DNA of 64,000 nt from Ectocarpus siliculosus (taxonomy: Eukaryota; Sar; Phaeophyceae; Ectocarpales; Ectocarpaceae), in the NCBI GenBank assembly GCA_000310025.1, contig FN649734.1, positions 4,191,178 to 4,255,177 of the forward strand, written 5' to 3'. The notes under the pieces were generated by a model. It saw nothing but the letters and a program-made list of their open reading frames with translations. It did not search any database and was not told the origin of the DNA. Positions 26,307-57,543 of the stretch are shown piece by piece (the first letter of the stretch is position 1; the number at the start of each line of letters is the position of its first letter). The translations under genes and the position numbers were made by a program.

Positions 26307-26452
26307 TTTGACTTCACCGAGTGAAGTACCAGTAGCCTTCCTCGCACACAGAGTCCAGGCGGTGGTCCAGTAGATGTGTGTTTGTCCGTGGTGTGTTTAG
26401 CAAAGGTAGTACTAGGAAAGGGAGGAGGGGGAGGGGGAGGAGGGGGGGGGGA

Positions 26453-29817: not shown

Positions 29818-30075
29818 TACATGGGGCCTGGAGGGGTCACCTACAGGCGCCAGGCCGTCTTCGGCACGGGGTTTAGGGTTCGTGTCTCCTTCCCTTCCTC
29901 GCCGGGGCCGGGATACAGGTGGTTCAACTCGCACCCCCTCGGAGGAGACCCCAACTACAATTTTGAAACTTGGGCGAGGACGGTGCTGCAGAGAGGCATG
30001 GTCCACCCGCGTGACGCCGAGGCTTGACGCACGGCGTTTGTAGATGTAGAGGGTGGTGGCCTTGGACAGCTGGTT

Positions 30076-31377
30076 GTGTCAGCGGCCGACGAGAGCTGGC
30101 AAGTGATCCTCTGCTGGGCGTCAGCTGGCAGGGAGATCGAAGTCGACACCCAGGGCATCCCGATCTCTCTTGTGAACCTCCAGGTCCGATCTGGTGTCGA
30201 CTCACAGAGCCCTTTTTTCAGACAGCTTAACATAGCGACCTTCGGGCACAGAGTTGTGAGATATGCCCCCATCACCGCATTCGGCAAAAAATGGCAGAAA
30301 CAGCTTCCCGGAGCCTGTCTCGCTGTCGTCGTCGCCGACGTTTGGCGCGATAGTCAAGTCTACCTGCTAAAAAACCCGGACGAGAGGAGGAGGTTTGGAT
30401 TCCGCGATGTAGATCCCACGGGTGCGTTTATGATTTCACCTCGTGGTGGTCGACCAAAAAAGGGCGCGCCTGTACACAACAAGAACGCTCTTGACGGTGG
30501 GAACTACTTCCGCAACCTGTATTCGATTCTACTGGAGCGAGACATCGGGGAAGTAGAGTTCGACACATGGGTTTCGGGGGATGCAGAACCACCCGCCTTG
30601 ACATTACTGCATATCGAAAAGTGGCTCCATGTGACCAACGCCAGCGTGGTGGTGTGGTCACATCGGGGCACTGGTGCCAACATTCTTGGACCATCCGACG
30701 GGAAAACGAACCTCCAACCGCCCACACTACACGTTGGGGTTCGTGAGGGACACGTGTACCGGCTTGTGCTCGAGGGGCCTTGGGGAGACAGGTTTGGATC
30801 GTCTCTAGCCGTGGCAATCGATCACAGCGTACGAACTCACCGTAAATTCCGTCGAACTTCTGAGATGACCGTGGAAGAACAGGAACCAGGCACGACTGGG
30901 TTTGGCACCAAGACCTTCTCGTGTGTCGCTGACATTGTGGGTGATATCATGGCCATCAACCAAACAGGGGGGGACCACAACCGACAGACGTGGTACGCGC
31001 CTCCAGGAACGGCCCTCGACGAACTCATGCTCCACCTACACCTCGCTGGGGTCTCTTGCAAGGGTAAACTCACGAAGTACAGTCGCTGGGATTCACTGTC
31101 CTTACCAGCGCACGGCGTAATCATCCGAACCTGGTGCAGCGCGAGCATGGGTGGGCTCGATCCCGATGACTTCGAGCCCGACCAGGCAACACGACTGATC
31201 GAGCTGCATAATGCCCTGGGTCTGAAGTTCCACCGCGGGGTATTGGATTTTCGAGTATCGAGCCAGTACAGCCAGTCTCTGCTCGCCCTCCTTGAGGTGT
31301 GCTGGCGGGGGCCGATCGTCGGGGCAGAGGACGCGTCCGGGAGTTCTACGGAAGGGAAGACTGGCAATGTGACATAA
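30076..31377 (+). CDS. Polymerase B-like N-terminal piece, 433 residues
   Basis: This intronless frame lies directly inside the left inverted repeat. It has no easily recognised catalytic motif of its own. Its position just before a palm-like segment, and its C-terminal stretch (LGLKFHRGVLDFRVSSQYSQ, then a Leu-rich helix), are what the exonuclease and linker part of a family-B DNA polymerase would look like. It overlaps the next long frame by about 80 bases. As part of a fossil element it is described only as a fragment. The family assignment rests mainly on the neighbouring frame. Confidence 0.4.
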   Translation: MSAADESWQVILCWASAGREIEVDTQGIPISLVNLQVRSGVDSQSPFFRQLNIATFGHRVVRYAPITAFGKKWQKQLPGACLAVVVADVWRDSQVYLLKNPDERRRFGFRDVDPTGAFMISPRGGRPKKGAPVHNKNALDGGNYFRNLYSILLERDIGEVEFDTWVSGDAEPPALTLLHIEKWLHVTNASVVVWSHRGTGANILGPSDGKTNLQPPTLHVGVREGHVYRLVLEGPWGDRFGSSLAVAIDHSVRTHRKFRRTSEMTVEEQEPGTTGFGTKTFSCVADIVGDIMAINQTGGDHNRQTWYAPPGTALDELMLHLHLAGVSCKGKLTKYSRWDSLSLPAHGVIIRTWCSASMGGLDPDDFEPDQATRLIELHNALGLKFHRGVLDFRVSSQYSQSLLALLEVCWRGPIVGAEDASGSSTEGKTGNVT

Positions 31378-33893: not shown

Positions 33894-33944
33894 TTGTACC
33901 GTGGTCGACCGGTAGCTTTTATACCAAGAAACTCAGGAAATAAT

Positions 33945-35066
33945 ATGTATTGTGTGTATACAGATAATTCAATCATGAACGATCTCATTCCGCAGTGTGC
34001 TCGTTGGTTGGAGGATAATAAAGACCCGGTTCATGTTCTTGAGGTCTTGAGGACTCTGCATCCAGGCTCTCTCAACAAAAATGTCCGGCGAGTCAGGCGA
34101 GAATGGATGCAAGTTTACGGTCCCGGCCAAAACGATGGCGCCATCAGGAAGGACCTTAAGCGCATACTCAAAGTCCTACAGAGGAAGGCGTCGTCGCTGG
34201 CCAAGAAAACCTCAAGTGATTCAAGGAAGAAATACATCTTGAAACAGCTCAAAATAGCCGAGAGCCGTATCATTTCGTTTTTCAAGTTGGATTTACTCGG
34301 CAAATGGGCAGCGCGCAATACCATTCATTCCCACAAGGAGTCCTTCACTGGGCTTGTTGATATCGACGCTCTCGTACGGAAGGTAAATATACTTCCGCCG
34401 TACGTCTCTCAGCTGGAACTCACACCGGAAGAAAAAAGTATTCCAAGGAAACGACGTCGAGAAGCCTTGGCAGCGAAGTGCGAAAAGAGCATCACAGTGA
34501 ACGCAAGCGACCTTGTCGATCTCATGGGAGCAATTATCACATACCCCCGAGCAAATTACTTTGAATTGGCGTGCGCGTTATCATTTGTTTCTGGGAGGGC
34601 GCTACCTGAGCTTGTTCGTAGTGCTGTCCAATTCACTCCGAGTGATACCGGCTCTCCTCATGAAGCTTTGGTTGCGCACGGTGGTTGTGAGGGGTCGACA
34701 ACATCCTCATTCCGGATACCATTATTATGCGAATACCAACACTTTATAGCGGGTGTCAATCGGTTGCGCGGAATGAAAGACACATCCCATCTACCGTCCG
34801 CCGAGGTAAACCGTCGATTTAGCAAATCGGCTAATTTGTGTGCCAGAAAGCTGCTTGCGGATGAAGTCGGATTTCGAGTATTCAGTGATTTGAGGACGCT
34901 TCACGTAGTGATAAGTCATGACGTGTTCACAGGGCATGAGTTTGATTTGGGTGAATGGGTACAAGTCGCACGTGGTGGGCAGACTTTGCCGGCCTTAAGC
35001 CGGAAGTGCGCGGTTGTGAAAGTGAGAGATATCAAGGACGACCATTTCAGGCAGTGGACGGTGTGA
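33945..35066 (+). CDS. Telomere-resolvase or tyrosine-recombinase-like protein, 374 residues
   Basis: The frame starts at an ATG only 51 bases after the stop of the helicase frame, a spacing typical of viral genes. The N-terminal half is helical and basic. The C-terminal half contains ALSFVSGRALPELV, then FRIPLLCEYQHFIAGVNRLR, then RVFSDLRTLHVVISHDVF. Protelomerases and other tyrosine recombinases share this layout: an Arg within an xGR..E motif, an IP.L..Y..F...LR helix, and a second Arg followed by an aromatic-rich helix. In hairpin-ended linear genomes such enzymes resolve the telomeres. The assignment is from pattern only and should be treated as tentative. The alternative is an unrelated structural or DNA-binding protein. 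Confidence 0.4.
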   Translation: MYCVYTDNSIMNDLIPQCARWLEDNKDPVHVLEVLRTLHPGSLNKNVRRVRREWMQVYGPGQNDGAIRKDLKRILKVLQRKASSLAKKTSSDSRKKYILKQLKIAESRIISFFKLDLLGKWAARNTIHSHKESFTGLVDIDALVRKVNILPPYVSQLELTPEEKSIPRKRRREALAAKCEKSITVNASDLVDLMGAIITYPRANYFELACALSFVSGRALPELVRSAVQFTPSDTGSPHEALVAHGGCEGSTTSSFRIPLLCEYQHFIAGVNRLRGMKDTSHLPSAEVNRRFSKSANLCARKLLADEVGFRVFSDLRTLHVVISHDVFTGHEFDLGEWVQVARGGQTLPALSRKCAVVKVRDIKDDHFRQWTV

Positions 35067-35839: not shown

Positions 35840-38660
35840 CTACCCCTGCTCCTTCCCGTGATCCCTGGCCTTGTTCTTCAGGTAGCCGTCGTTTCTCATT
35901 ACCTTGGCCTCTGTCTGAACCCTTGTGCCGTCCTTCCTGTATGGGTCGGAGGACAACCTTTTGCCTTGGGAGCTGAAGTGGTGGGTGCCCAGAATCCACG
36001 CCCCGTTCTCCATGTTGCCGATGCTGTACTCGAAGAACTCGAACGTGTTGTCCGACATGACGAGCTTGTCATTCTCCTTGTAACCACGGTAGTGGAAGCC
36101 GATGGAGCGACGGTGAGGGCGATAGTCGAACTCCTTGACGCCGGCTCCACCGGGGCCTCGCGGGTTGGGGTTGGGTTTCTCTTGCTCTCCCGATTGTACC
36201 GCCCCTGAAAATGCGTTTGGAAAAATCATTCAGAGGAGACAAGTGGCCGAGTGCAAGCGTCTTGGTCGCAAGAGGAAATACGAGCTTCCACAGGCGACGG
36301 ATGTAGCGGTACAATAATGTGAACGTAACCAGAGCTGCAGCAGCGAACATCAAGAAGAGTGAAGAACATTTCGGAACACACACGAGTAAATACTTTGCAT
36401 CTCATCCAATCGCTGTTGGCGGTTGGACCCACTGCTTGCCGAAAACAAACCTACAACCACAGCATCTCATTCAACGATTCCGCTGCACGCGTTGGGGGCA
36501 CTTGAAAAGGGGCGAGCTGGGATGCGATGGAGTGCACGGAGCGTGGCACAATTTGATTGCCAGGAGGGCGAAAATGACTCGACAATAAGGCAACAACAAC
36601 ACAAACAGGAACGCCTGCAACGAACACGACGAGCGGGGGGGATAGGCTCCATCCAACCATGCACCAGTTGCTCGCCCTTAAGGCATCGCGTTCTGTTCGA
36701 TCGACTACTGTCACATAAGCAATAAAAACGTTAAATAGCACGCTTCAACAACAACAACAATAACAACAACAACAGACTCTGGGGATAGAGTGAAATACAA
36801 GAACAAGCTCACCTCCGACACTCGCGTTCTTGACGTGCACGTGTCCGTCACAGCTGCATGCCTCGCCCGACTCGGTGCAGGAACACCCGTCCACATTGCA
36901 GGAGTTGGCTGAAAATATGAACATCGAATACACGCGACACAGGAAGAGTAGGTCGTTAGGGTTTCAATAGAAAGTAAGGGAAAACAACAACAACATAAAC
37001 GCCTGCAACGAACACGACGGGCGGGGGGAATAGGCTCAATCCAACCATGCACCAGTTGCTCGCTCTTAAGGCATCGAGTTCTGTTCGATCGACTGTCAAA
37101 TTTTCATTCCAAAATTCAAATAGCACGCTTTGGCGGCGTTGTACTCCGCGAGAAACTCCATGCGGCTTGTAATGTGACAAGACAGGAAAACAACAACAGA
37201 GGTATCGGTACAGTAGCCCACAACCTACACATACATGAATCAAACGAGTCACTCACCACCCACAGAAGCATTTTTTACGTGGGAGTGGTCCTCGCCGCAC
37301 ACACACTTGCCGACCTCGGCACTGGTGCACGCGTAGCCGTCGTGGGAGCACGAGTTGGCTGCCCGGAACGAACAAAAATACAAGAAGAGAAGGGAAACAG
37401 ACGATTTGATAGGCGCGAGGGAGGGGGTCGAGATATAACACTATTCATGACACCTACAGAAGGCCGGGTGCACTGGGACAACGGGTGACGCAGGACACAT
37501 GGCAACAACACACAAGCACAATTTCACTCACTCGCTCGTCACTCATTCAATGTAGCAACAACAACAACACACCAACAGCAGCAAGAAAGCAAGCTGACGA
37601 CCGCAGAGAGCAATTACCGACCGAGACACGGAAGATATGGAGAGGCAACGAATGAATAACACCTGTCCTTCCATCAAACCACACGCAAGAAGCAGTGACA
37701 GCGGTGGACGGCACGCGCTTTGATCTATCTCACATTTCACACTCGCTTTCTTCACCATCTTGCCGTTGACCTTCACCATGGCGTTGTTGGCTTCAGTTGC
37801 TTTCCGTGAGCCCGTCGTACGCGGGGCATTCTCGGGCCAGACGAGCCTATCCGCGTAGGGGTCGATGGTTGCTCCAGGTGGAGCCGCCCTGGTGGTGTGG
37901 GCGACCACCGACTTGCGAGCACTGTCGCGGTCCTCGTCCGAGGTAGCTTGCCCATCGTTCCGGGTTGTGATGTAGTCCGCCACGAGAGTGAGGGATGTCA
38001 CGTTCCCGGGCCTGACGCCATGGACCGCTCGTACCTTCTCTCCCCGGGCGTTCGGCCCCTTCACTACAATCAGCCCGTGGACCTTGGGGACGACAATCTC
38101 GCCGAGCTCGTAAGGGCCGCGCGCAGGCTCGGCGTCTGGTCCTTTCATGAGCTTCACGAAGAACTCCGGGGGCTTCTGAGAGGGGCCATCCAGCAGGGTA
38201 AATACTGTCCGATCGTACTTCAGGTTGATGCTGTCTCGGTGGGGGTCCATGCCCGCGCCCGCCGGCCGGAGCATGGCACGGACATCGACCACTTCGTTGC
38301 GGAACCCCTTCGGCGCCGACACCTCGATGTCACTGAGGAGCCTTCCCAGTTCCGGCTTCCTCATCGTCTTGTCGACCGAGAGTCGTTGCTCCGTGGTGAG
38401 TGCACCTTTCTTGCCTGTGAGTCCGAAAAGAGACTGCTCTGCTTCGGGACGATCGACTGCGCGTACTCCACCACCAGCTCGTCCACCTCTTTGCTGATGT
38501 TCCGGCCGTCGTACGTGGTTGTGACACCCACCTCCAGGTCTGTGACTAGCTCGCTGAGAGGAAGCTCCTCTTCCGTGTCGATGGTGATGTCCTTCTTGAG
38601 CTTCTTCGCCCACGAGACTCCTCCGCCACACTTTTGTTTCTTCTTGGACGACACCGTGAC
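35840..38660 (-). CDS. Spliced gene with 2OG-Fe(II) oxygenase-like domain and duplicated Cys-rich exons
   Basis: The visible exons are 38660-37734, 37358-37257, 36908-36813 and 36204-35840, and the last three junctions are all phase 1. The large exon has a region with DPHRDSINLKYDRTVFTLLD, then GEIVVPKVHGLIVVKGP and VRAVHGVRPGNVTSLTLVADY. HxD, a distal His and alternating hydrophobic strands suggest a double-stranded beta-helix dioxygenase, but the usual spacing to the C-terminal Arg is not convincing. The next two exons are paralogous 31-34-residue Cys modules ending VKNASVGG. The last exon encodes a basic aromatic-rich domain (FDYRPHRRSIGFHYRGYKEN). The reading frame of the first exon is not continuous as given, so a short intron, an error or decay must be considered. 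It has no visible start, and exon-like pieces at 39536-39491 and 39182-39099 could belong upstream. Confidence 0.5.
36590..37360 (-). repeat. Tandem duplication of an exon with its intron
   Basis: The two Cys-rich exons (36813-36908 and 37257-37358) encode similar modules. The intron DNA beside them also matches: a block with ATCCAACCATGCACCAGTTG and GTTCTGTTCGATCGACT occurs at about 36640-36705 and 37030-37097. A unit of about 390 bp was therefore duplicated. Both exons begin and end in phase 1, so the duplication added a module without disturbing the frame. Confidence 0.85.
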
Positions 38661-40548
38661 CTGTTATGTGTCGAACGGAGTAATCGCGATTCTTCAATAG
38701 ATAGATGGAATTACTCAACCAATCCGTTGCATCCCATCAATAGAATCGCCCGTTTAGCTCACTCTCTCGATACCCTAACCCTAGATAATACCTCACAGTT
38801 ATTAAGGCGATGGCACACCTTTTCTCCCACACAATCGTGCGGGTTTGTTCGAGTCACAAAATAAAAACCAGACTTCATTCTCTCGGTGTGAGATCCACGA
38901 CGAATGATGGATATGTGGAGAGTGGGCGAGTGTGGGCGTGCCTACGGAGGGGGGGTCGGTGGCCAGGGTAAGGAGAGGCAGGCATGACTTCAACATTGAA
39001 CCGGCAAAACCAAGAGGAAGATTCGCCTCTAACATGGACGTCAGCTACTTGCGTACCCGGTACTGATATATCGATATCGTTGGTGCAAGTGTTCGTACCT
39101 CCGCGGCGGGTGAACCCGGGGGTTCGACGTTTGGCGAACTGCTTCCCAATGCCGTCGCCCTTCTGCCCCTTTTGCGTGGGGTCTACGGCGCATAGATTTG
39201 CGGGAGGGGGGCGAGGGTGGAAGGAGGATACTTGGTATGTGCATGATTGCGCGAGTGAGAAGATAGTGTCATTGATGTGGACGAACAGCCGTGTTTTTTT
39301 GTGCACGGTGGTGAATCCCAGAGAAGAGTAGGAGAGTACGGTCAGCCCGACATTGCCCCCCCCCCCCCCGCGGAAGATAACCATCCCGGCTGGAAAGGAT
39401 GCCTTGGTGCCTAAGGTAGGCCTTGGTGCTTCTGATCGTCTGCAGGAGTGAATCTACAGCAAGGAGTGATTCCAGCTCGCGAAAACTCACCTCCATACGT
39501 CTTCTCCTTTTTTGTTCGCGGGGAGCTTGGCGGTTTCTGGGAGATTGTGATGATAACTGTTGACGAGCGATTAGGTAGCATACGACGGTAGCGAAACGGA
39601 CGGGGACACATGTTGTCGGACACGCGAGTGTGGCCGGTTCACGGTAGAATCATCAGCAGTCGGTGTGACCGTACAGCGCAGAGAACAATCGAGGCGTCGT
39701 CTCCGATGTATACTTCTATATATATAGTCTATGTATATCGTTACGTGTTTTGCCACAGAACAGAGAGAGCACCGAGCTAGTTGTTGACTGAGAACACCTC
39801 AGACTACTCCAGCTCTTGCAAGACATTTGGTGCCAGCATAGCTTCTATGTTAAGCCGGCTTGCCCGAGACAGCAGCAGTGAAGAGGTCGCGGACGTGTGA
39901 GGGAGCGCTATTTCCATGGGTGGGTTTGATGAACATATAGGCGAGGAGAAACTCCCACAACCGAAGCACAGTGTGTGATCGAGAGGACGGGCGGCCGCTG
40001 TACTGCTATCTGAGGCTTAAGTACAGCGATGAAGTGAGAGCTCGTGGCGTCCATGTAGTGTCGACCATCGACAGGAACCTCGGGAGGCCGCAAAGCAGGG
40101 ACCTCGTAGAGAGCTACGTGAACAGCTTTCCTTCTGTGCACAAACCTTGTCAATACTGGCAGTATCCTGGTATTGGTGATCGTTCTCTGCCCTGTGTGAG
40201 TCCGCGCCGCACTCCAAGGGGGTTCCATGTCGACTGTCTGCTGAACAGGGTATGCATCCTCTCTCAATTGAAATCGCCCCCCCGCCCCGAAAATTGGGAT
40301 GAGGCGTTTGCCCCAAAAAAGTGCTGAAATTAGACAGCAAGCTTCCTGCTTGGCTTTCTGCCAACCTTCCTACCACGAAACCCGAGATAAGACGTTGGGA
40401 AGAGATCGTTTCGAGACCTCCCACCCAAACCAAGTGGTATGGTAGCTGGACGCTGTGAAACTTTTTGTTCGGGTCGCACAGCCGTAAAGCAGCAAAATGC
40501 TGGTAGAGTCAAAGAAGAGTTGCCAGTCTGCAGCAGATTGTCTATGCC
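38661..40548. other. Stretch between oxygenase-like gene and right inverted repeat
   Basis: The minus strand has two exon-like pieces with good splice signals (39536-39491 and 39182-39099). Their shared frame would read TKKEKTYG then DPTQKGQKGDGIGKQFAKRR. They cannot be joined in phase to the gene below them. A + strand frame (39971-40327, 118 residues) has no recognisable domain. Telomere-like CCCTAACCCTA is found near 38771. Confidence 0.3.
39579..39631 (+). repeat. 53-bp direct repeat, copy 1
   Basis: The sequence starting CATACGACGGTAGCGAAACG is identical to 42312-42364. The two copies enclose the 2.7 kb that contains the right-hand inverted repeat arms. The second copy abuts the outer end of the last arm. 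Confidence 0.9.
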
Positions 40549-43332: not shown

Positions 43333-44432
43333 TCATCCCTTATCGCGGGCGTTGGCAGCCTTGTTGATGGCCATGTAATCGATCAATTCCTTCTCGTACC
43401 TGGATGCGACGCACAAAAACAAATCCGTACACGCATGTACATGCATACACATAGACAACACGAAAAAGAAATTAAGTGGGGAGAAAAATGAGGAAACCGG
43501 GAAGAGCACCACCCTGTCTCAGTAAGCACTTAGTGATCATCACGAACTTCGGTTCTTGTCGCCGACGCCGGCCATATTTATCCGAAACCAGGCTACACAG
43601 CCCTACTTTCCGACCACCCACGCACTATTTCACATCTTGACAAACAAACCTTCGTGCCATGACAACACATACCGTGCGTTTGGTGTTCAGAGAAAACTAC
43701 AGAAAGGCGTGTCGATGTGCCACAGCAAGCGCCCTTCTCCCGATCGTACATCATTTTCTGGTCCGCGTGGCGGAGCACTACCCATGAATCACTGCATGAA
43801 CTCCAAAAGTTTGCAAAAGTCTGCCTACGAATTAATTTCGGTTTTTTACTGATGATGTGGGTCACGTACCGTTTCAAATCATCGTCTGCTATACGCTGGA
43901 ACTGAGCTTTGATGTTCTCATCGACCCCTCTCCATTTCTCGCCCAGCACGATTCCGATCTCCGTGTCCTCCATGTCGAGGTTTTCGGCCTTGGTCTGGTG
44001 GTTGATGGTTCAAGTTTGGGAAAGCATTTGGGAATGCTGTTTCGTGTGTCCAATGCAAGGGAAAACGGTGGAAGAAAATAGTCGCGTGATGTACCATTCT
44101 GATTTGTGAAATAACAAGACAGCGTATTTTAGAATATTTCCCCCCTCACGGCGGTACTAAGAAGGTCGTGGTCTCCACATGTTGGTTGTATTGTGGCGAA
44201 ATAAAGGTTTGTCACAATCCTTGGCTTTGCTTGGGTTAGAAGACGTGCGTACTGCCCCCCCGCTGAAAGTCATAGGCTCGACAATGCGACGACACCTCGT
44301 TTTCCCCACATGGCTCACCTCTGCGAACTTGGCTTGCGAAAAGTGAACGACAGCAGACATTGCAGCTCTTGGGGCATCCTTCTTTGCCCTCTTTCGCGGT
44401 GGCGGTTGCGATTGTACTTCATTCGAGCCAGG
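43333..44432 (-). other. NLS-like linker and C-terminal HMG box
   Basis: Exon 44432-44319 gives PPPRKRAKKDAPRAAMSAVV, a basic nuclear-targeting-like stretch running into the first HMG helix (HFSQAKFAE). Exon 43994-43870 adds KAENLDMEDTEIGIVLGEKW and AQFQRIADDDLKR. Exon 43399-43333 adds YEKELIDYMAINKAANARDK and the stop. Together they match the HMG consensus, with Pro-to-Ala variation at the start and the conserved GEKW and A..D..RY..E positions. HMG boxes bind and bend DNA with little sequence preference, so this would target the enzyme to chromatin. Confidence 0.85.
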
Positions 44433-47400
44433 CTGAGGGGAGGGTGTGGGACGCACGGATAGGGCATAAGTTTGCTACATAGAACGATTCAGGGGAAAAG
44501 CCAACGTCCAGAATATTATTTGTCATGGACAGGCATGCTCACCGGCGGAGGCTCATCCGTGTCCGTGTCCTCGTCTTCGTCTGGCGGCGAATCTCGGATG
44601 GCCATGAGTTTGTTCTGGCGTAGCAAATCGGTGCACGGCATGCTGAGGGTCGTCAGACCACAATCATTAACCGTACTTTCGTCGCCTGGTGAGTGGAGGT
44701 CGGCAAAAACTACACCACACCGAACTGTGTGACAGAGTCACTCCTTATTTGTTCAGCCAGAAGCCCTCACGCCCGACTGTAAAAACGTGCGCGTGAATGT
44801 ATACCGACCTCTGTCTGGTCTGTTGTGGACATAAAACCACATATATACAAACACATCGTGTGCCGACTGTCATGACGCCCAGAGGTCGTCCGTGTTTCCG
44901 CCTGTTTTCACGCACTCGTTTCATGCAAGCAAAATTAGGTGCGAGATTGCAGACAACGCCCCGCACGCCTCACAACCAGGTAGTTACCCACCTCGTCTTC
45001 GCGCCGGTGTTCTGATGTCGACGAGAACGACAGAACGAGCAATCCGTGCCCGAGACGTCCCCCTTTTGGTTTTACAATCTTGGACCCGACCTGGGCAAGA
45101 TATTCCGCGGGTATGCATTCGTCACCAACATTTTTTGGCGGTGACATGCACGTGGCTAAATCCTCGATTATTCCATACACAATAGTGTGCTGCCAAGGAA
45201 AGTCGACGGTTGGTTGCAGCTTCTCACCTCGACGACCGATTCCGGGTCGTTAAACTCTTGCAGCCATTCGCCGATGTGATTCCCAGTGCTGCCATCGCGT
45301 TGGGGCAGGCGAGTCACGACCACGACCTCCTTGAGCTGCTGCTTGACAAGCTGGGAGACAGTGCAATAGGAACTCGCGGTCACCAACAAGGAGAGTGCAG
45401 ATCAAGGCTTTGCATACCGTACATCATAGAGACGGCAGTGGTACATCATGCTCAATCGGGGCCCGGGGGGGTACACTCACCTTGTCCGTGAGGACGTGTT
45501 TCAGGAGACCCAAGCTCTGATTTTTCACCCCTCCCAGCAGCATGATGAGGAAAACTTGAGAATTGGGAACAGTCTGGAGCTCGATCCTGGGGCTCCCCTG
45601 CTCTGGCACGGTAGGCAAGACTTCGAAAGGCGTATCCACCAGGATAACCCGACGCCTGTCGCTTGGGTATGCGATAGCCTCGGCGTAAATCGACCCTAGC
45701 ACATGGCACGAGAGGTATTTCAGCAGCGAGTTCAAGTAGTCCGTCGGAATCACCATGGTCGAACCCCTCCGGACTTTTTCGTAAGTTTCCTCTAGGACAT
45801 CCAGGCCGATATCGCCATGCTCGAACGCAAAGGGTGGGCACAATAGCGGTCCTTGCAGGTGGGGCGGCTGAAGGTTCTTCTTGGAGTGAGAAAACTTCCG
45901 GAACATGCACACCACCAGACCCTTCTCGTCGACGATGTGGTTGAATTCGACGTCCTCCCAGTATCTTTTCATGGGGTAGTAGGCCCGCTGTTTGACGGTA
46001 CTTCGCACGTTGAGTAGACAGAAGGAATAGACGCTGTGGTTCACGCCGAACGGTGTTGTGGTGGGCTTGGTGTTTTCGCCGCCTAGCCCGTGCCTTGAGA
46101 TTCCTAGCACTCCGTAGTGGTCTGGTTTGCCGCAGAAACCTGCTACTGTGGTGAGATGCATCGTCCTGCCAGGAACCGTCTGCCCACGGAGGGATTCGAG
46201 GTCGGGAGGGCAGGTCGTGCGGCTGGCGGCGTGTTTGGAGACTGACTGCTGCGCGGTATTCACAACGATGTTCGTACTGTCAGGGAGCATCAAGATTCGT
46301 TCCAGGGAATCCATGACGTGGGTGAATCCGCACGGGTTGTACTCCCCCGTATCAACGTCAAGCTCATGGCACATTTGGACGTTGTCGTCCAGCATCCAGA
46401 CGAAGGGTATGTCTCTGGTGGAAGACCACTGCTGTATGAAGTGCCGGGCGTATCCAATCCCGCCCTCCTCAGCAGAACAGTATCCACCTTCACTTTCGAA
46501 GCAAGGCATCCGACCCGGCATTGCCAGGACCACGTACTGATGGCCAAAGTGTCGCCTGTTCGCACAAATACACACAGCCACACGTGAGCTGTTCTGATTC
46601 GTGGTACACTCGCCAACATAGAGGCGAGAACAAGTTAGGAGCGAACGCCGATACCGCAATTTGCTGACGCAATATTTTTCTACTATTGTATAGGCCGAGG
46701 ACCGCCCCCCTTCAACGGCAGCTGTCCAAGCTGACTTACATTGGTTCCTCGTGGAACAGAACGAGTGTGCGATTTCGCAAAAACAAAAAAACACGGCAAG
46801 ATTTGAACCCGCGAAAATACCGCAATCTATCATTGCAAGGCGGACGGCGTGTGATGGCTTCCAGCTTTTTGATGATACCACGAATTAGGGTTTTACTGCG
46901 CAATAACTTGGCAGAAACAATCTGCATCGAAAATTACAACGACTTTCTGCCGAGGGGAATACACGACCAAATTTCATGTATGACCTTGGGCAAAAAACAG
47001 CTCTTTTCAGATTGAGCTTAGTCGGCCGTGCCATAGAGATGTAACACGGCACACCAACAACCAGAATCGTCGTCAAACGAGTCGCGCCCCGATGTTCTCG
47101 CCGAGCTACATGTATTTGCTCTGATTCTTCGAGGCTGCGTGAGGTTGTGAGCAAATATGCGCGGGATCTAGAATGCGTGCGTATGATATTTAATCTAGAG
47201 GTGTTAATTCACGACAACCATAAACACGCTCAAACCGAATTATACACACGAGTTTCGGGTCAGCGGGGGCTACCCACAGCAACAAGGCTTACAAATATGG
47301 CCTCGTCAACAGTGACGATTTGAAGAGGTCAGGGCAAAACTGTGAAATCATCCCGATGATGTCTGGACTACTACATGTATATCGTAGACCAACGTTTAAC

Positions 47401-50400
47401 ATGGTTGCACGGCCCATGCATGAGAGCGTACCTGTAGAGGGCGAACTGCTCCCAGCGAACCACCAGGACGTTGATGTGGAACCTGCATGAGGAAACGCCA
47501 AGGGGTTCGCGGTTTGTAGTCATGTGTTGCGCGCCTTTACTTGAGACGATAGGCGACGAACCCCGGCGGCCGGGAGGGCCGGGGCATTCACTTTCAATCT
47601 GGAGCGAAACCGACCTGCCAATCGCTCAGTATATTCTCATTAGTTATGCATCGCTTACAAAAATGAGGCCCCCATCAATCCATCCACACAACCCGGTCAA
47701 TATTCATCCTCAACCAATTGCATTTCGCCTTTTATTTAGGAACTCCGTGTTCATGCTTTTCGTTTGCTGGCGCATCTGTCTCCCTCCCTTGATACAGCTA
47801 TGGCGGGAATTCCGCGATTCGACACAGGGCCATTACCGCACCTCCTAGAACAGTTTTTTTTCTCCTCCCCATTTCGTTGGTTTTAGCCACATGCACTATA
47901 ACCGTTGGTAAGTGCCCCCACATATTTCTTAGGGTGTGCCATCGATCTTGTGACCACGGATGAATTCATACAAGTGTGCTTTTTCACAGTTTGGGTGGAT
48001 CATGAGTTGATGTGTGACACTCAATCAATCAATCGACCAGATTAATTCTCCATCCTTTTGCGCGGCAGTCCACCGACGACCTCATTTTGCTGTTACGGTA
48101 GACAAATCCTGTTCTACGTTCGTCCGTGCTTCGATATCAGCGCGGTATCCACCACCTCGAGTTCTCGGCTAGGACACGCTGGCTGTTGTGAACAAGCGGT
48201 CAGGGAACCCCTAGGGAGCAACAAAAACATGAAATCATTGGACCGGAACCGAAAAAGCCGATATCCATCACATGCACTTCTTTACCGATGCGTCCGATCT
48301 TGGGGGCAAGAGGCTGCACTGCAGCACAAGAGTATGCATGTGTCTACGGGATTCCGTGCTTTTGAGCAGAATAAGTCGTCTCGTATGTTCTCACCTGGTT
48401 CCCACGTCAGGCGGGTCACACCCTTGCTGCAGGGCGACTGATCGATCCAGGACCGCCTGTCGTGGACCGGAAGCGGCCCGGTTGTACGACGGGGTAAATA
48501 TCCACCTTGACGCAGTTTTTTTAGGATTAAAAAAAATGACGCCAATCTCTTCAGTGGGGATAGACACGTGTAGGCTGAACGTATGGCCACTTTCCGGTTC
48601 TCGAGGGTGCCGGAAGGTGCAGGTGCTCAAGTTGCCCTGTGCTTCTCCATTGGCCCAGTTGCACGGCGGCTGCTTCGCCGCGAATTTACGCACATGTGCG
48701 TCCTTGGCTGCAGGCCCTGCAATAAACGGGGCGAATTAAAATCACAGCAGGGTACGGGAGCTTGTTAAAATCGAAGTCCCAGCCCATGTGGTAGCTGCTC
48801 TCAGGCGATTGACAAGGGTTTTGTGTGACAAGATTAGGTTGAAACCTGAACGCGCTTCCTTTCTTTATTTACCTACACGGGTTTTTTGTCACGTTCCGTA
48901 GCCTACGACTCTTCTCGCCTTCATCGCCATCCTGAGGCATATTCCAGCGCTCATCTACGCGTCCATGTTCGCCTCCCGCTCGTGTAAGGTCCGCCAATTG
49001 TAGCGTAAGTCCCTTCCCGTAGGCGTCGCCAGCCATGGCGCACGTGCATTGACTTTCGCACGCGCAGAACTGGACACCGAGGCCAGGCTCGAATCTGCCG
49101 TCCCAATTTATGGCCTCTTTCAGGGACTCAAAACAGGCAGGTGCCGGCGTAGGGTCTCCTTCCGTATTGAACGGGGGCACAAGCTCGCGCTGCCGGAGGG
49201 CCTCAATGTATTGATTACCTATCACAGACCGCACATGCTCGCCACACGAATCGACGAGTAGAGCCGCGTACTCATCCCGCCACCTGTTGCCCTCGCAGCA
49301 GCTTTGCCTCACGAGATGTATGCGCTCCCTCACGATTCCCTCCGTGTATTTGCTAGCGAGGAGTGTGCTGTACTCGTTGCTCATGGGTGCGATGCCGATT
49401 AGAGTCCGCCAGTGCGGAAGGAGCCAGCTGAGCTCCTCTCTGGGCCACCCATCTTCGACCGGCGGGGGACAAGGAACTATTTCCGAACAGCTCGCAGTAG
49501 TCGCGTTGGTAAGCTTGGAGAGGTAGTCGAGGTAGACTCCGGTCTTGCCGATTTGGCACTCTGCTGACAGGATCAGACGCCGTGGATCTTTGCGCTCGGA
49601 CAGACCCCTGCGGTGGTCGAAGTGTTTCTCGGCCGGGCGATACGCAGAGTAGTTGTGGAGCGCGTTCTCCGTTTCAGTGTTCGGCTTTTTCTTTATCTGC
49701 ACGAACAATGTCGCAGTGGGCGGCGAAAAGCGATCGGTGTGGTAAGCTTTTTTTTTGAAATAGTAATGCCGTGGTAGACGATAGTAGTGCCGAACTCGGG
49801 TCACACCGATTGAGGCGAGCGTAGTGGGCGTTAGGGGGAATACAACTAGCACAATTCAAGCCAGTACGCTTGGAAAAGAAATGCATCATTTTCACATTGG
49901 AAAGCATGCATCTCCCAATACATCATAAAGACACGGGGGAAAGACGACGGCGTAGACAGGCAGCACACAACAATTGCCGCAGTTTGAAGAGCGACTCTTT
50001 CGTAACCGAATCGTGAGGGAAAATGGAAGGCTTCCTTTGATTTTCTTCGGCGTACAACAAGAAAACCGTGTGCAACGCTTACGTTCGTGGAACCGATCAT
50101 GTGCAAATCCATCTTGGCCATCCGGATGCACTTCGAGATTGGCGTGTTCGTCAGCCTGTGTTCCTCAACAGCCTTGAGAAGCTTTCCCATCGTGTGACTG
50201 GGGACTAAAGCTGTGGGAAGCGGGAACACGCTCTCCTCCAGAGTTATAACGTCGTCCGCGCCAATCGAGGCAATGATACTTTCCAGCAGCCACCAGGTAT
50301 CAGCCACGGACAATATGCCAGCAGGTGTTGATACCTTGACCAAGCGCTTGCGATCGAGGACCTGAGTATTTCATTTCAGCGGTCAGGGGCCAAAAGGTCT

Positions 50401-53400
50401 TCATGCTGGTGATGTTTTCCTACGTAATCATAAAGTAAAACTTCTACTACACTCGATTTGTGATGGAAAAGCACCAAAAATATGCATTGGTGTACAATTT
50501 ACCTCGTGTCATATTTCCGGGAACTATTGATGGAATGCGCCCCTTGCCATTCGGCACGCCCTCCGAATCATAGAAGCGACTCACCTCACAGCCAAGTGAC
50601 ATCGCGTCTTCGCGGGAGGGACCCGAACCACCATTGATTTTGCGAAATGCGGGATATCGGCAAAGGCGACCCAGCTCCTGCTCGAATGATGAGAAGTACC
50701 CGGCTACCCGAAGACGCAGGTCGAAGCAACCAAGCGAGTGAGGGAACGTATCGCCCATCCGCCCTTTTTCGCACAGTATGAGTATCATCGGCACATTCAG
50801 CAGATCTTCGTACGAGAGCGATGTGTTGCGCGACCCTGGTAGTTTTCGCAGCTCCACCATCCTGTTACCGAGGGTTGAAACCCCCCCTGCATCATCCTGG
50901 ACGTTGAAGCTATCCCGGAAGTACTCCTCGATGTCCTGTGACAGGTTTGTGTCTCCGTTGTCGCATACTACCGAAAACAACGGGCGCTCTGTCGGCCCAT
51001 CATGTAGAAGGAGCTCTCGCCTCGCTTGGCGCAGACAATGCTGCATACTGAGTTGTTCCTCCCTTTCGTAGACACGCATTACAACCATACGACCGTGACC
51101 TCTGTCAGAATCTCCCCTCAAGAGGTCTCGAAGTACTCGATCTGTCTCGTTGAACCAGGAATATTCGGCGCTAGTGTTCTCCGCGACAGCGCTGGCTTTG
51201 AGTTTCTCCCTCAAGATGTATCGTAGACACGATCGGTCATCGTGTGGGTTGTCTTTGAGCTCTTCCCGAGCTGCTGATACGTACGCCTGCAAATGCACAA
51301 GTGATGTGCGGCGGAAAACGGCGTGTGTCCGAGCTCAGACCAAAAAAAAACATGTTTTTTAGCTCCCAAGGCATGTATACACAGTCCTCATTTATCGTTT
51401 ACAAGTGGAAGTGAGTAGACCTCGTTTCTACCGACACAGTGTTCGATTGATATTGCAACAAGTGGCCAAACGCTGTCTCGAAGGCGGTGTTTCAGCGAGT
51501 GGTAGCGTATTCTAGTCTTGATGCTGTATTCCGACTATGGTCGCGCATCCCACTAACCAGGATCGGAAAGCATTGGTGTCAATGTCAATCATTCGTAGCT
51601 CCTTCTCGCCTGCTTAACGAAGTCCACGACGGAGTGGATGTCACAGAAACAGGGGTCTCCCTTGGTGCCAACATTGAATCTGCAGACTCTGCCCAGTCTT
51701 GTGTCGAAGCTGTCGAGGCAGTCTTCGGTCACAAGTTCGTCGAGGAAGTTGTCGGTCTCAGAACCGATGCCCGGGCTCCTCATCCGCATGGTTAGGCCTT
51801 CCTGTCGGAACATCGATAGACATACGAGGGAGAACAGGTACTCCGCCAAAAGGAGATGGCCGTCATGCAGGGCCACGGACGGCTGCCGGTCGTTTTCTGT
51901 CGGCGTACTTATGTTCTTCCCCCGACGCTGCTTGCCCCCCCGGGGTCCAAATTGCCTATTGAATCGCGCCCGCAATTCCGTAAATCCCGGGTCATCCCTG
52001 ATGCGTTGATCCTCCAGTGAACGCCCGCCAGGTTGGTCGTGGTTGCCAATTTCCCAGTCACTATCGGCGCGTATTTCGCTGTCGGGACCAAGCTCTAGCG
52101 GCAGGTTGGTGGTGAACCCTAGCTTCGCCAAAATGCTTGCCTCGTTTGTCTCGAGCCGTACGGTGAATAGCCTGCTCTTGTTCTTGACCAAAAATCGTTT
52201 CCCTCTCTTGCAGTAGCTGATCTCCATGCTAGCATTCGCATCGCATTCTCTGAGTTTAACTGCTATCTCAGCAGAGAGCGCTTCCGCGACTTCGTTGGGA
52301 GCTGTAAAAGCCTTGTCCTTGATATCCACGCGAAAGGAACTGCCTTGCCCGGTTTTAGGCACAACTTGCACATGCAGTGTGCACGCGCTAGGGTCGGGTC
52401 TGAAAGGTATGGTCCCGAGGTAAAACTCCATGCTGGGGGAAATCGTGTCGGCAAAAGGGAAAGTGGGTAGAAGGTGCGTTAATAACAAGTGACAGAGGTG
52501 CAGTTCCTCCCATTGATGAATGCGATTCGCCTACACAGGTTGTGGGCACCCTTCTTTGTCGTTTCTGCATTTGCTCTTATATACTGATGAAGAGAGGGAC
52601 GCAGTCGCAACGACAACGCTGGAACACGGCCGGCATCGTTTCAAGAGTCGAGCATACCATACGGTAATTACGGCACTTTCCTGAGAGAAACATCAGCAAC
52701 GGATAGCAGGCAAACCGGATTTCGCCCAGGTGATGTCATCGTGGTGGTCGTGCGTCCATGCTACACATACGCACGAAACAAACCCTACGCCGCACCGCAC
52801 GCGGCAGATATTTGCATTGTGGAGCTCCAATACAAGCGACGACATTGATTAACCAACATTCTGGGAACACAAACACATCGCGGTGCTCTTTTGTCTCATC
52901 TACCCAGCAGCCTTTGCTCAGCGTTGGGCCATCACCTTCTATAGATTCCGTCCTCGCGCGGATGATTTTCTTCAAACCATTCGATGACATTCGACTCGTG
53001 TACTCGGCTCTTGTCGGTCAGGCAGTTGTATGGAGTCGCGCTGGTAGCGTGGGCCCACATGATGACGAGGGCATCGCACGGAAGGGGTTCAACTAAAACA
53101 ATAAAGTCGAAGTTCAAAACGCGCGCCCTGTGCAATGCGTGGTTCCTCGGCCAAATATTTCTTAACGGCACCCTTTGAACACTCGATGGTTGTTGGGACG
53201 TTTGTCCAAGCGGCGTCGGCATGCCAAATCAAAATGAATGCCAACGGTGGTGGCGTTAGTGGCCCCCGCAAAAGTCAACAAATGAGTAGATGACCGGTAC
53301 GTGGGGCTACGAGAACAGAACCTGTTACATCATTTTGCCTGCCTACCACTTCCTGAATACAAAACTCCTGAAATACAGTCCTCCGCGGAACCCACGCACG

Positions 53401-56400
53401 CGCGGAATAGCAAACTTACGTAACATAGGCGAACTGCGCGATTGTTGACCCAAACTCGAGAAGTCCCAAAATAATCGAAACGTGAGAGGCCCTGTGGAAC
53501 ATTTGGTCGTTTCTAACAACGCTGTAGCTATTGACGTTGAACACCACAGATAGGTATTTGACTTCTCAACTTCTCCACATCTCAACATCCAGCCCATGAG
53601 TTCGGCCTTGCCCGATTCCAAACTTTCGCGCATCCCTTGTGCTTTGAACATGAACGCATGATTTTTTCCGTTAGTAGTTGGTTCCTTGCCCTCCGACAAT
53701 TTACTCCGACAAGTTGGTGCCAGTAGTCGCTATACAGGTTGATCCAGGCAAATATCCCGACAGACGCTGCCACATTGTCCTCTGTCCAAACGTATCGCCA
53801 ACCAAACCTAGAGTATCCACTTGATTCGAGACAACCGACCAGCGCTTTGGTGTCGAACTTTCAGGATCAGACTGTACGATTGTTGAGAAGGCCCATTGGG
53901 GCCGTCCAAATCGTTTACTTCTCCACACGACCCACATACGTAAGAATCGGACGCCAGTATGTTTTCCTTTGGCGACGTGGGTACGCGTTGCTAATGGCGC
54001 GAATCATTCAATTCTTCGTATTACACGTAACTCATCGTTGGTCAAACGTTAGGTGCATTGTTGCACACCAGGTTCCTATGCAAAGTCGTGCTCTTGGTTA
54101 ACACACATTTTTTCTACACGGCGGCATTTCAATGTCCCACTACTGGAAGTTTATGTATTCGGCCCATGGGCAGCGTATTGAGGGCCCACGGAGTGCCCAT
54201 GGGAGGACCAGGGGCAGTTCATCGGCAGCTCATGGGCAGCCCATGGGCTGCCGCTGGGCTGCTGCTGGGCAGTTATGGCGGGCCCGCAACGACCTAGAAC
54301 ACTTCATCAACCCAGTCCCTGCACGGCTTCCTACGTAACAATATACCAAGGCCGCAACGACCTAAAAACCTTACCAAGGCCCATCAGGTGGTCGGGCATG
54401 GTTGATGGGGATTGGTGTTAGGGTTAGTGTTAGGGTTGAAAAAGTTAGCCGCGGCGTAGCCCTGCCCCTGCTCAGCGATCTAGAACCTTACCAAGGCCGC
54501 AGTTACCTAGAACCTTACTCAGGTCCATGGACCGCCCATCGTGGGCAAAAATCGGTGAAAAATACGCTCACCATGGCGGCTCATGCCCCCCCTCATGGGC
54601 ATTCCCACAGGCGGCCCATGAGCAGCCCATTTTGCTGGGCTGCCCATGGGCGGCCAATGAGCTTCCGGTGGGCCAAATGGGCCGCCCATGGCCGGCCCAT
54701 GGCGGGCCTATTGCCCACAGGGTGCTCATGGGCTGCCCATTGCCGGCTAATGGGCAGTCCATGCGCCTTAAATGAAAACTGCCGAAAGTGTGGGTGACCT
54801 CGAAATCTTCTCCGCGAGGACAACACAAAACCAATTGACACCTGACGATTTTGTCGTTTGTGCTGATCCACCAAACGTGTGGCGTGGTGTGGGAGGGGGG
54901 CGCGGAATACCGTCCGGCCTCATTAAAATGCTTGAAGTCGAAGGAAAATGGTAAATCCGAAACACCTCCGTCCCACACCACAATTTCTGGGTATCACCAA
55001 TACTAATATCATACGTTTTGGTGTCAATTAGTTTATTTTGTCCTTGCAGGCTCGAGTGCAATGATTCAGCTGCTTATGAGCGTGTTCAGAAACTGTTGGT
55101 CCATCTGGCTGGATCAGCTCGTGACTTGCTCGAGTTCGGGTCTTCCGTCAAATTTCGAGCACAAATGCGATGATCACGACCAGTCGTTCCCTCGCTGTAT
55201 CTCAAGTCCAACCACCACAGCACCCCGCACGCTTCGTACCTGACACCCAGCAGCACGAGGTTTGCGTGGCGGTGAAGATCTTCGTCGTTAACGTACTTGT
55301 CGTGCGCGCCGCCATCCGTGCAGCCATAGTGACATTCATCGGCAACAAGGACGAAAAGAATGTCCTTATTGTCGCGGACTCTGGACTTGAAGCGTTCGAA
55401 GAGTTGATCGTGCTTTGCGCTCTTAATGTACATGATGACGCACTCCGACGCCACCTTGCCTTGTGGCAACACTCCACATTTCGCCAGCCTGTTGATTGTC
55501 TGCTGCTGCAGTGTCTGGAACGCAGGCGTCAGCACCATAAACTCGACTCCTTTGAACTCGGAGATGCACCGACTGCCCAGCACTTCATTTGTTTTGTCGA
55601 ACAATCGCTGGGCCACCTCCTGCTGCTTCGGCCAGCAGACATGTTGGATGTTATGTGAGTCCGGGCTACCCGTCTCCTGCAGAGCAGCCGTCAGATGACC
55701 AAACTCCGCCGCCGTGATGTTCAACCTTACTTTCAACAGCTGCGCGACGTGCTGGTCTTGGTCGTCGGAAATCCTGCGATGGGGCGACGGGGTCGAATGA
55801 GCTTCACAGGTGGAGGTCGACGCCCCTTCCCCAAAATGTCGGATGCCCTCGCCCCCTTGTGGAGACCTTGACAAGGTCGAACACCTTGGAGAAGACAACC
55901 AAGGCCTCGAAAGGAGTGCAATCGAGGTACTTTTNNNNNNNNNNNNNNNNNNNNNNNNNNNNNNNNNNNNNNNNNNNNNNNNNNNNNNNNNNNNNNNNNN
56001 NNNNNNNNNNNNNNNNNNNNNNNNNNNNNNNNNNNNNNNNNNNNNCGGAAAGACATATGAAACGCCATGCAGGTCACACATGAGGCATTGCTTGAGTCTT
56101 ACGTATGTGTGTGTATGTTGCATGGTTAGTTCAAAATTTTATATTTGTTCCTCAGGATCAGGCGATTTGGTCATTCTATGAGGGACGGAGGGAGGGAGGG
56201 AGGGAGGGAGGGAGGGAGGGAGGGAGGGAGGGAAGGTGTGGACCAGGTCGAAGAAAGTTCATCCGCATCGATACGTGAATCTACCTTGCCGTTGTTTCGA
56301 AGTGTCTCATTCGTGCCCCACAAACCTCTCCGCTGTCGCTCTGTGTACCCAGATGAGGAGAAAGTGGTGATTTAGATGTGAAGTTGCGTGTTCGATGGGC

Positions 56401-57543
56401 GAAAATATGCGCGATGGCAGTGCATTTGGGCTTCCGGGGCGTTTAAACAGCAGAGGGTCAATCGCTCATGGAGTTGCCACAGACCCAAGAGCCATCTCCA
56501 TGAATACAGCTAGGCGACTACGACCCGCCACACACGTACCTGCATTGCGTGTATACCGGTGTGGTATCTTCTATATCTTGAACGACCTGAACCATTTCAT
56601 TGCAGGCCATTCCATTGCAGACCACCTGCAGCGTACTCTCGTCAAGAATGGGCTCCTGCAGGTAATGGTTGAGGTCGAGTTGTCCGCGCCACTTCTGAGC
56701 CTCACAGAACTCGGCCAGTAACGTTCCCCTCACGACGTGGACATCCGCCATGATCGTCGCACTGTACACGATGTCATCCCCCTCCCCAGATTTTAGTGAA
56801 ATGTCGACTGTCACCTTGAAAACCGACGCCTGACGAGGCCCTTCATCTAAATAGTAACCATCGACATTCAGGTTTTCTTGCCCGGTTTTGAGGAGGTTGG
56901 CCAGGGGGCCGCCCAATACCACCACGAGTACGCTTTTCGTTTCGTCGTCGGTTTCGATCAGTACCGTTGACAAGGTGTTGCCGCTCCTGGCATCCACCTG
57001 CTGCCGAGCGGAAACCACCTCCCCATAGTTCACCCTGATGACACCCTCGGGAAATCGTATGTCATATAAGACATGCGGTTCGCAACCCGCATTCTTCGCA
57101 GCACTCTCAGCAGCCTTCTTCATTATTTGGTGACCTTTAGCACTGCCTGCGAAAGCTGCATTGAGTGTGTCAACGACGTCCGAATATTCACTGCACGTGC
57201 TCGCCTCCGGCATCAACTTCCGAAACGCCGTGCACAAGTGGACGAGCCGTTCACGCCTGTCGACGAGCCGTTTACGCTTCGACGCAACAGGAACATCTGG
57301 GCCCACATCAAGTTCTTCCACCACGCGCACGGCGGGAATCAGGCCTCCAACAAACTCTTCACCCACGGTCCCGGTGTCAGATGCCGAGAATATTAAAGCC
57401 ACCCTTTGGATGGCCCCTTGTGGCTCGTCATCACCGCTGTCATCGCTATTCCTCGCCACATGCGGGCGGAGGGGCGAAGGAGTCAGCCGCAACATATTTG
57501 CAGTCTGATTGCAGCCACACGCTTGTACTGTAACGTGCGTCAT
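43333..57543 (-). CDS. SF2 helicase - TAGT-like glycosyltransferase - HMG-box fusion protein
   Basis: The exons are 57543-56540, (within gap)-55808, 55773-55240, 53040-52936, 52432-51610, 51286-50585, 50361-50083, 49696-48873, 46555-45481, 45350-45228, 45090-44988, 44709-44543, 44432-44319, 43994-43870 and 43399-43333. Apart from the gap and the 34-base break at 55774-55807, all phases fit. Each junction is GT-AG except one GC-AG (51610/51286). The product is at least 2,050 residues long. In order it has an acidic N-terminal region, helicase motifs ADECHYG, SATPYN, EKGRMGDTFP and FEQELGRLCRY, a P-loop AECQIGKTG, a glycosyltransferase with WMLDDN and WEDVEF, a basic linker PPPRKRAKK and an HMG box. 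TAGT enzymes are predicted to glycosylate oxidised bases made by TET/JBP oxygenases, so a nuclear DNA-modifying role is likely but inferred. The start ATG is provisional, and exons at 58.0-58.8 kb may precede it. Confidence 0.8.
45481..46555 (-). other. TAGT-like glycosyltransferase exon
   Basis: This 1,075-base exon starts in phase 2 and encodes a GT-A-type enzyme. A Rossmann-like start (HQYVVLAMPGR) is followed by GGIGYARHFIQQW and FVWMLDDNVQMC, where DDN is the expected metal and sugar-nucleotide site. Further on YWEDVEFNHIVDEKGL supplies the ED pair typical of such folds. The GIGYAR then WxLDD order is the pattern I associate with TET/JBP-associated glycosyltransferases of phages and some eukaryotes. 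All visible catalytic positions are present. A generic stramenopile glycosyltransferase is the alternative, but fusion to a helicase and an HMG box argues for a DNA substrate. Confidence 0.65.
48873..55934 (-). other. Helicase region of the fusion gene
   Basis: Exon 55773-55240 ends in ...NLVLLGV plus AG, and exon 53040-52936 begins C-GCG-ACT-CCA. Splicing across 2.2 kb therefore creates SATPYN, the SF2 motif III, 40 residues after the DECH box. Exon 52432-51610 supplies an insert of about 270 residues. Exon 51286-50585 carries the second RecA-like domain (SVVCDNGDTN, then motif V-like KGRMGDTFP and motif VI-like QELGRLCRY). I see no P-loop before the DECH box, although part of that region is lost in the gap. 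A good P-loop (SAECQIGKTGVYL) appears only after motif VI, in exon 49696-48873. The arrangement is either circularly permuted or contains a second NTPase. Confidence 0.7.
54140..54775. repeat. Palindrome-rich GCCCATGGGC array in an intron
   Basis: Two clusters (about 54160-54290 and 54590-54770) consist of short self-complementary words built on GCCCATGGGC, GGCAGCCCATGG and GGGCTGC. They are separated by a region containing TTAGGGTTAGTGTTAGGGTT (about 54418-54437). The array lies in the 2.2-kb intron of the helicase gene. It has no coding potential. The density of overlapping palindromes would allow many alternative hairpins. Confidence 0.75.
55935..56045. other. Assembly gap (111 N) inside the helicase gene
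   Basis: The gap removes the acceptor and probably the 5' part of the second exon of the fusion gene, so about 35 residues or fewer are unknown. A (GGGA)n microsatellite sits about 140 bases away. Confidence 0.99.
56181..56234. repeat. (GGGA)n microsatellite
   Basis: About 12 tandem GGGA units lie in the first intron of the fusion gene, on the minus strand a (TCCC)n tract. Confidence 0.95.

Follow-up and report, generated by a model that had tools for sequence, protein, structure and literature searches.

Does a single brown-algal gene join a helicase, a glycosyltransferase and an HMG box in one protein and, if so, what would such a protein add sugar to? The question is raised by a stretch of 64,000 nucleotides of the Ectocarpus siliculosus genome (hereafter the window, whose first letter is position 1), for which a sequence-only reading had proposed 15 exons with fitting splice phases, apart from a gap and a 34-base break, and a protein that would add sugar to an oxidised DNA base. 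On the minus strand, between an ATG at 57543 and a TGA ending at 43333, we obtained a model of 16 exons and 2,087 amino acids in which all splice phases are compatible, the only stop is the terminal one, and the 15 introns are GT-AG in 14 cases and GC-AG in one. The exons can be joined in frame into one protein, as had been claimed, and the phase fit holds; the exon count had to be raised by one, and the gap is a run of N (55935-56045) lying within intron 1. An extra exon hidden in this run is unnecessary, since exons 1 and 2 already join in phase 2 without it. Our guess is that the 34-base break corresponds to the end of exon 7, with its GC donor G/GCGAGA at 48919 (the slash marks the exon end), where the matching position of a paralogue, which lies elsewhere in this genome on contig C16, reads G/GTGAGA. 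The exons, with their counterparts in that paralogue, are as follows.

Exon 1, 56540..57543, minus strand: start codon and a 334-residue N-terminal region whose kind is unassigned; open frame, phase 2 fit to exon 2.
Exon 2, 55240..55773, minus strand: first part of the cpSF2 helicase with motif II VADECHYG; PF20692 E=3e-33 for the enclosing ORF; paralogue exon aligned.
Exon 3, 52936..53040, minus strand: SF2 motif III SATPYN, its S codon split by an intron; paralogue exon aligned in the same phase.
Exon 4, 51619..52432, minus strand: stretch separating the two helicase halves; its donor is GTTAAG, where the paralogue has GTAAGA.
Exon 5, 50585..51286, minus strand: helicase half with CEKGRMGDTF and QELGRLCR; PF20692 E=8.3e-36 for the enclosing ORF; 62% identity to the paralogue.
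Exon 6, 50083..50361, minus strand: helicase linker; paralogue exon aligned.
Exon 7, 48919..49696, minus strand: Walker A block LSAECQIGKTG and the GC donor; PF20692 E=4.7e-10 for the enclosing ORF, profile positions 640-699.
Exon 8, 48395..48716, minus strand: linker between helicase and glycosyltransferase; paralogue exon aligned.
Exon 9, 47432..47482, minus strand: start of the glycosyltransferase region, INVLVVRWEQF; the TAGT match runs from residue 1515 after splicing.
Exon 10, 45481..46555, minus strand: TAGT core with EEGGIGYAR and WMLDDN; PF20691 E=7.9e-12 for the enclosing ORF and 8.8e-14 spliced; paralogue exon 54% identical.
Exon 11, 45228..45350, minus strand: 3' of the glycosyltransferase core; paralogue exon aligned.
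Exon 12, 44992..45090, minus strand: last exon common to the paralogue; followed by a donor in both copies.
Exon 13, 44543..44614, minus strand: short, acidic and tentative; the frame is kept if it is skipped.
Exon 14, 44319..44432, minus strand: basic, NLS-like RKRAKK and start of the HMG box.
Exon 15, 43870..43994, minus strand: HMG box core; HMG_box 22.5 bits for the exon ORF and 35.8 bits spliced.
Exon 16, 43333..43399, minus strand: end of the HMG box and stop codon.

The joins that we would trust least, both made on phase and splice signals, are that of exons 1 and 2, with no counterpart of exon 1 found near the paralogue, and that leading from exon 12 into exon 13 or 14 at the HMG end. 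For exon 1, Pfam listed nothing at E<=10, and a search of the genome returned exon 1 itself alone. By eye it contains LANLL, with other LXXLL occurrences further on, a motif so short that it cannot be distinguished from a chance occurrence. Exon 4 has no listed Pfam match either. Separately, the part of intron 2 at 54150-54760 is rich in repeated CCATGGGC-like words.

The identity of the encoded domains was assessed with Pfam, on ten single-exon ORFs before splicing and then on the spliced protein. Three of the ten ORFs exceeded the cut-off for cpSF2-GREB1, one exceeded that for TAGT and one matched HMG_box below its cut-off; exon 3 alone, at 20.4 bits, fell under the cut-off of PF20692. The spliced protein scored 320.9 bits against cpSF2-GREB1 (PF20692; cut-off 26.2, E=2.8e-95), 52.3 bits against TAGT (PF20691; cut-off 27.5, E=8.8e-14; best stretch at residues 1515-1626, C-terminal to the helicase) and 35.8 bits against HMG_box (cut-off 25.4, residues 2010-2074). 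For the helicase and the glycosyltransferase, chance is excluded by these E-values together with the existence of the paralogue, and the rise of the HMG_box score from 22.5 to 35.8 bits upon splicing supports the joining of exons 14-16. Applying the usual names of SF2 helicase motifs, namely I (GKT), II (DEXH), III (SAT) and VI (QxxGRxxR), we could locate all four, as LSAECQIGKTG, VADECHYG, SATPYN and QELGRLCR respectively, and equivalents are readable in the paralogue. Along the chain, motif I (GKT block, residue 1189) comes only after motifs II (DECH block, 478), III (SAT, 513) and VI (QELGRLCR, 1022), which amounts to a circular permutation. Both GIGYAR (1562) and WMLDDN (1583) lie inside the TAGT match, and residues 3-215 of the exon 10 protein match PHROG 842, a beta-glucosyl-HMC-alpha-glucosyltransferase, with E=7.6e-6. 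PDB sequence searches with exon 10, the exon 10 alignment and the helicase alignment returned no match at E up to 10, and an AlphaFold model from a two-sequence alignment of the glycosyltransferase exon reached a pLDDT of 31, too low for interpretation; the putative glycosyltransferase fold is thus assigned from the Pfam and PHROG profile matches. The domain set named by the sequence-only reading was borne out in these comparisons: an SF2 helicase, a glycosyltransferase carrying GIGYAR and WMLDDN (TAGT-type by Pfam profile), an HMG box and, before it, the basic, putatively NLS-like RKRAKK stretch. The comparison of exon 46555-45481 with TAGT that it had proposed gave the PF20691 match at E=7.9e-12 on the enclosing ORF.

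Our searches of the genome revealed a single further copy of the helicase-glycosyltransferase pair, the paralogue at 6299058-6307622 of contig C16, with 11 exons equivalent to exons 2-12 and 1,670 complete codons without a stop. The two proteins share 49.6% identity over 1,575 aligned codons, and the differences by codon position (562, 502 and 796 at first, second and third positions) are fewest at the second and most numerous at the third, which is the pattern of protein-coding DNA. Phase is the same at 10 of 10 compared splice junctions and 8 of these fall in the same alignment column, with the other two off by 1 and 8 columns, an agreement that is partly dependent given that the exon borders of each copy were chosen with the other as a guide. 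EEGGIGY and WMLDDN are invariant in both copies. Within the 27 kb examined around the paralogue, neither an HMG box (best profile E=0.6, best tblastn E=0.61) nor a counterpart of exon 1 (best E=2.6) was found. We also observed that SDDSGEDQEQ in the tail of the paralogue (about L020:1987-2200, minus strand) resembles SDDSGDDEPQ in exon 1 of the window gene (E=2.6); read by eye, SDDSGEDQEQ is preceded by IDLV, an arrangement reminiscent of a SUMO-interaction motif.

Judged by these profile matches, the window gene is a GREB1-family gene. According to the available text of a review (PMC6163654), animal GREB1 consists of a circularly permuted SF2 helicase, a presumed nucleic-acid binder described as inactive, fused to a C-terminal TAGT, and carries LXXLL motifs in its N-terminal part; the same text leaves a DNA role of the glycosyltransferase open. 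Two further papers cite GREB1 as an enzyme that transfers O-GlcNAc to protein (PMC12645433, PMC10446492), and one of them terms this activity cytoplasmic, with GREB1 itself confirmed as nuclear with some cytoplasmic staining (PMC10446492). The core of helicase and TAGT is therefore already known from animal GREB1, and what sets the alga apart, by its gene model, are the apparently intact ATPase motifs and a likely fusion to an HMG box. The earlier statement that no described system has this architecture does not hold for the core, which has the GREB1 layout as far as the review's available text describes it (PMC6163654); what comes on top of that layout is the HMG end. Among the literature matches listed, titles and abstract openings described no algal GREB1 homologue and no GREB1-HMG fusion, and in two of these listings (15 of 1,008 and 10 of 43 matches) GREB1 occurred 0 times in each entry.

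With its 15 introns, the window gene reads as a nuclear cellular gene, although such introns are also compatible with a viral past. Spliceosomal introns have been reported in giant viruses, according to the available text of PMC13236599. Viral and bacterial relatives were looked for and rejected. Scans of viral contigs gave 3 pattern matches with the glycosyltransferase exon, 12 with the helicase exon and 109 with the glycosyltransferase alignment, and a scan of bacterial and archaeal genomes with the helicase alignment gave 26, none of which was confirmed; these scans need short near-exact peptides, so that distant relatives may escape them. A tblastn search of 50,697 phage records returned no match at E<=1.

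Elsewhere in the window, we considered whether the ORF at 37546-38736 (minus strand) could encode a TET-like oxygenase that partners the GREB1-like gene. In this ORF and its relatives, H-x-D is invariant and so is an H further on, which is reminiscent of the metal site of 2OG oxygenases. However, comparisons with Pfam, NCBIfam and PDB and a scan of viral contigs yielded no credible match (the best in PDB being FtsE at E=0.019), the AlphaFold model has a pLDDT of 35, and both relatives, found elsewhere in the genome on contigs C455 and C9, lie about 2-3 kb from telomere-resolvase-like copies, as does the ORF in the window. On account of this neighbourhood we infer that the ORF belongs to a repeated element, and we rejected it as a partner, though without proof. 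The region 30028-35066 (plus strand), together with 37546-38736 (minus strand), is probably this repeated element, which would be either viral or a separate mobile element. It contains an ORF with matches to a Dda-like helicase (phrog_325, E=5.6e-11) and an HNH family (phrog_15463, E=4.9e-4) and a telomere-resolvase-like ORF (PF16684, 24.6 bits, below the cut-off of 27; phrog_5272, E=1.4e-9), the latter with 30 match pieces genome-wide, itself included. Endogenous giant viruses of Ectocarpus have been reported with a telomere resolvase, according to the available text of PMC13236599. A further ORF of 616 residues at 24546-26396 (minus strand) matches GIY-YIG weakly, with 20.2 bits against a cut-off of 22.6.

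What, then, could the protein do? The reading that we favour, and to which we give somewhat better than even chances, is that of a GREB1-like glycosyltransferase acting on chromatin or transcription proteins in the nucleus, aided by an SF2 ATPase and an HMG tether, where location, catalysis, sugar and acceptor are all what we infer. Most likely nuclear, the protein would grip, and perhaps move along, DNA or chromatin by means of the SF2 ATPase with its intact motifs I, II, III and VI; the C-terminal HMG box, preceded by the basic NLS-like stretch, would tether it to DNA; and the TAGT domain would, as animal GREB1 is reported to do, move sugar from a nucleotide sugar to serine or threonine residues of chromatin or transcription proteins. 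The HMG tether depends on the 3' end of the model, and it is conceivable, if unlikely, that the GREB1-like protein consists of helicase and glycosyltransferase, with the HMG box (exons 13-16) belonging to a separate small gene downstream. The open frame of exon 13 extends upstream with two ATG codons, so that an independent start is possible, the acceptor before it (tttgctacgccag) appears weak by eye, and no HMG box was found within about 12 kb 3' of the last common exon of the paralogue (best E=0.6). On the other hand, exon 12 ends at a donor at matching positions in both copies, and for this reason a further exon is expected after it; the exon 14 acceptor (cctcccctcag) looks good by eye, and its phase fits whether exon 13 is included or skipped; and the joined parts have no stop between them. 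Catalysis, too, could be doubted if the enzyme parts were degenerate and the protein only a chromatin scaffold, as has been suggested for the animal helicase, which the available text of PMC6163654 describes as non-catalytic. We regard this as quite improbable, given that both copies still show the SF2 motifs and WMLDDN; in proteins about 50% identical, such retention indicates that selection maintains them.

The acceptor is the harder question. A role in DNA would have the TAGT domain glycosylate a hydroxylated pyrimidine of nuclear DNA, in the manner of the kinetoplastid base J glucosyltransferase (JGT), with helicase and HMG box providing access to chromatin. Iyer et al. reportedly described JGT in 2013 as akin to TAGT and GREB1. 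JBP dioxygenases make hydroxymethyluracil for base J. The available text of PMC9472816 has base J synthesis beginning at hydroxymethyluracil and describes JGT as a nuclear enzyme of GT-A fold, which, like the TAGT profile match, the PHROG 842 match (E=7.6e-6) and the suitability of a DNA target for both helicase and HMG box, speaks for such a role. Against it, an exon-by-exon six-frame search of the genome (189 Mb in 492 contigs) gave 0 matches to Tet_JBP at E<=1, although the same kind of search found 4 matches to AlkB-type 2OG oxygenases; the C5-methyltransferase pieces found were just two, both on contig C2 and both matching DNMT2 best; and no credible family match was obtained for the neighbouring ORF with H-x-D...H, whose relatives sit next to a repeated element. 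The absence of Tet_JBP matches and the presence of only these two DNMT2-like pieces make oxidised 5-methylcytosine an unlikely acceptor. C5-methyltransferase genes are likewise cited as undetectable in Ectocarpus in the available text of a paper on Saccharina, whose abstract reports a 5-mC landscape for that alga (PMC8472486), so that methylation is not absent in all brown algae. We consider a glycosylated DNA base doubtful, and the proposal of the sequence-only reading that sugar is placed on an oxidised base is, as it was stated, not supported by the searches for Tet_JBP (E<=1) and methyltransferases or by the citation of GREB1 as a protein O-GlcNAc transferase; its domain set holds, the novelty of the core does not. 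A more specific variant, in which an ATP-driven GREB1 with a working helicase and an HMG tether adds sugar to nuclear DNA at a base supplied by an oxygenase other than TET/JBP, seems to us very unlikely; if true, it would be a eukaryotic glycosylated-base system outside kinetoplastids. We favour a protein acceptor, with real doubt, because O-GlcNAc transfer is the activity cited for GREB1, no Tet_JBP was found at E<=1 and the methyltransferase pieces found are only DNMT2-like. This preference is tempered by the fact that the protein O-GlcNAc role is known from citing papers, one of which calls the function cytoplasmic, and a Tet_JBP or methyltransferase domain divided among exons could escape a six-frame search.

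Steroid receptors are not known from this lineage. A GREB1 protein with intact ATPase and glycosyltransferase motifs, in a genome where no TET/JBP and, of methyltransferases, only DNMT2-like pieces were found, would allow testing of a receptor-independent function. In the cancer-relevant GREB1 family, whether the glycosyltransferase targets protein or DNA is an open question, as far as the available text of PMC6163654 goes. With its probable DNA-binding end and its intact helicase motifs, the algal protein is a useful variant for learning what the family does, and the C16 paralogue, near which no HMG box was found, provides a natural comparison for what an HMG tether adds.

Among known systems, the phage enzyme of PHROG 842 is linked to the window protein by the profile match in exon 10 (residues 3-215 of its translation), whereas no hydroxymethyl-base pathway was evident in our searches of the genome that carries the window gene. 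Kinetoplastid JGT reportedly shares with the window protein a TAGT kinship, and its pathway uses JBP dioxygenases, a domain not found at E<=1 in the six-frame search of the Ectocarpus genome; JGT is itself a nuclear GT-A glycosyltransferase according to the available text of PMC9472816. The closest likeness is to animal GREB1, in which, as in the window protein by its gene model, a cpSF2 helicase is followed by TAGT in one protein. Differences lie at both ends, with an N-terminal exon that has no Pfam match and a likely C-terminal HMG box in the alga, and in the helicase itself, which is inactive in the animal protein as described in the review's available text, in contrast to the ATPase motifs kept in the window protein.
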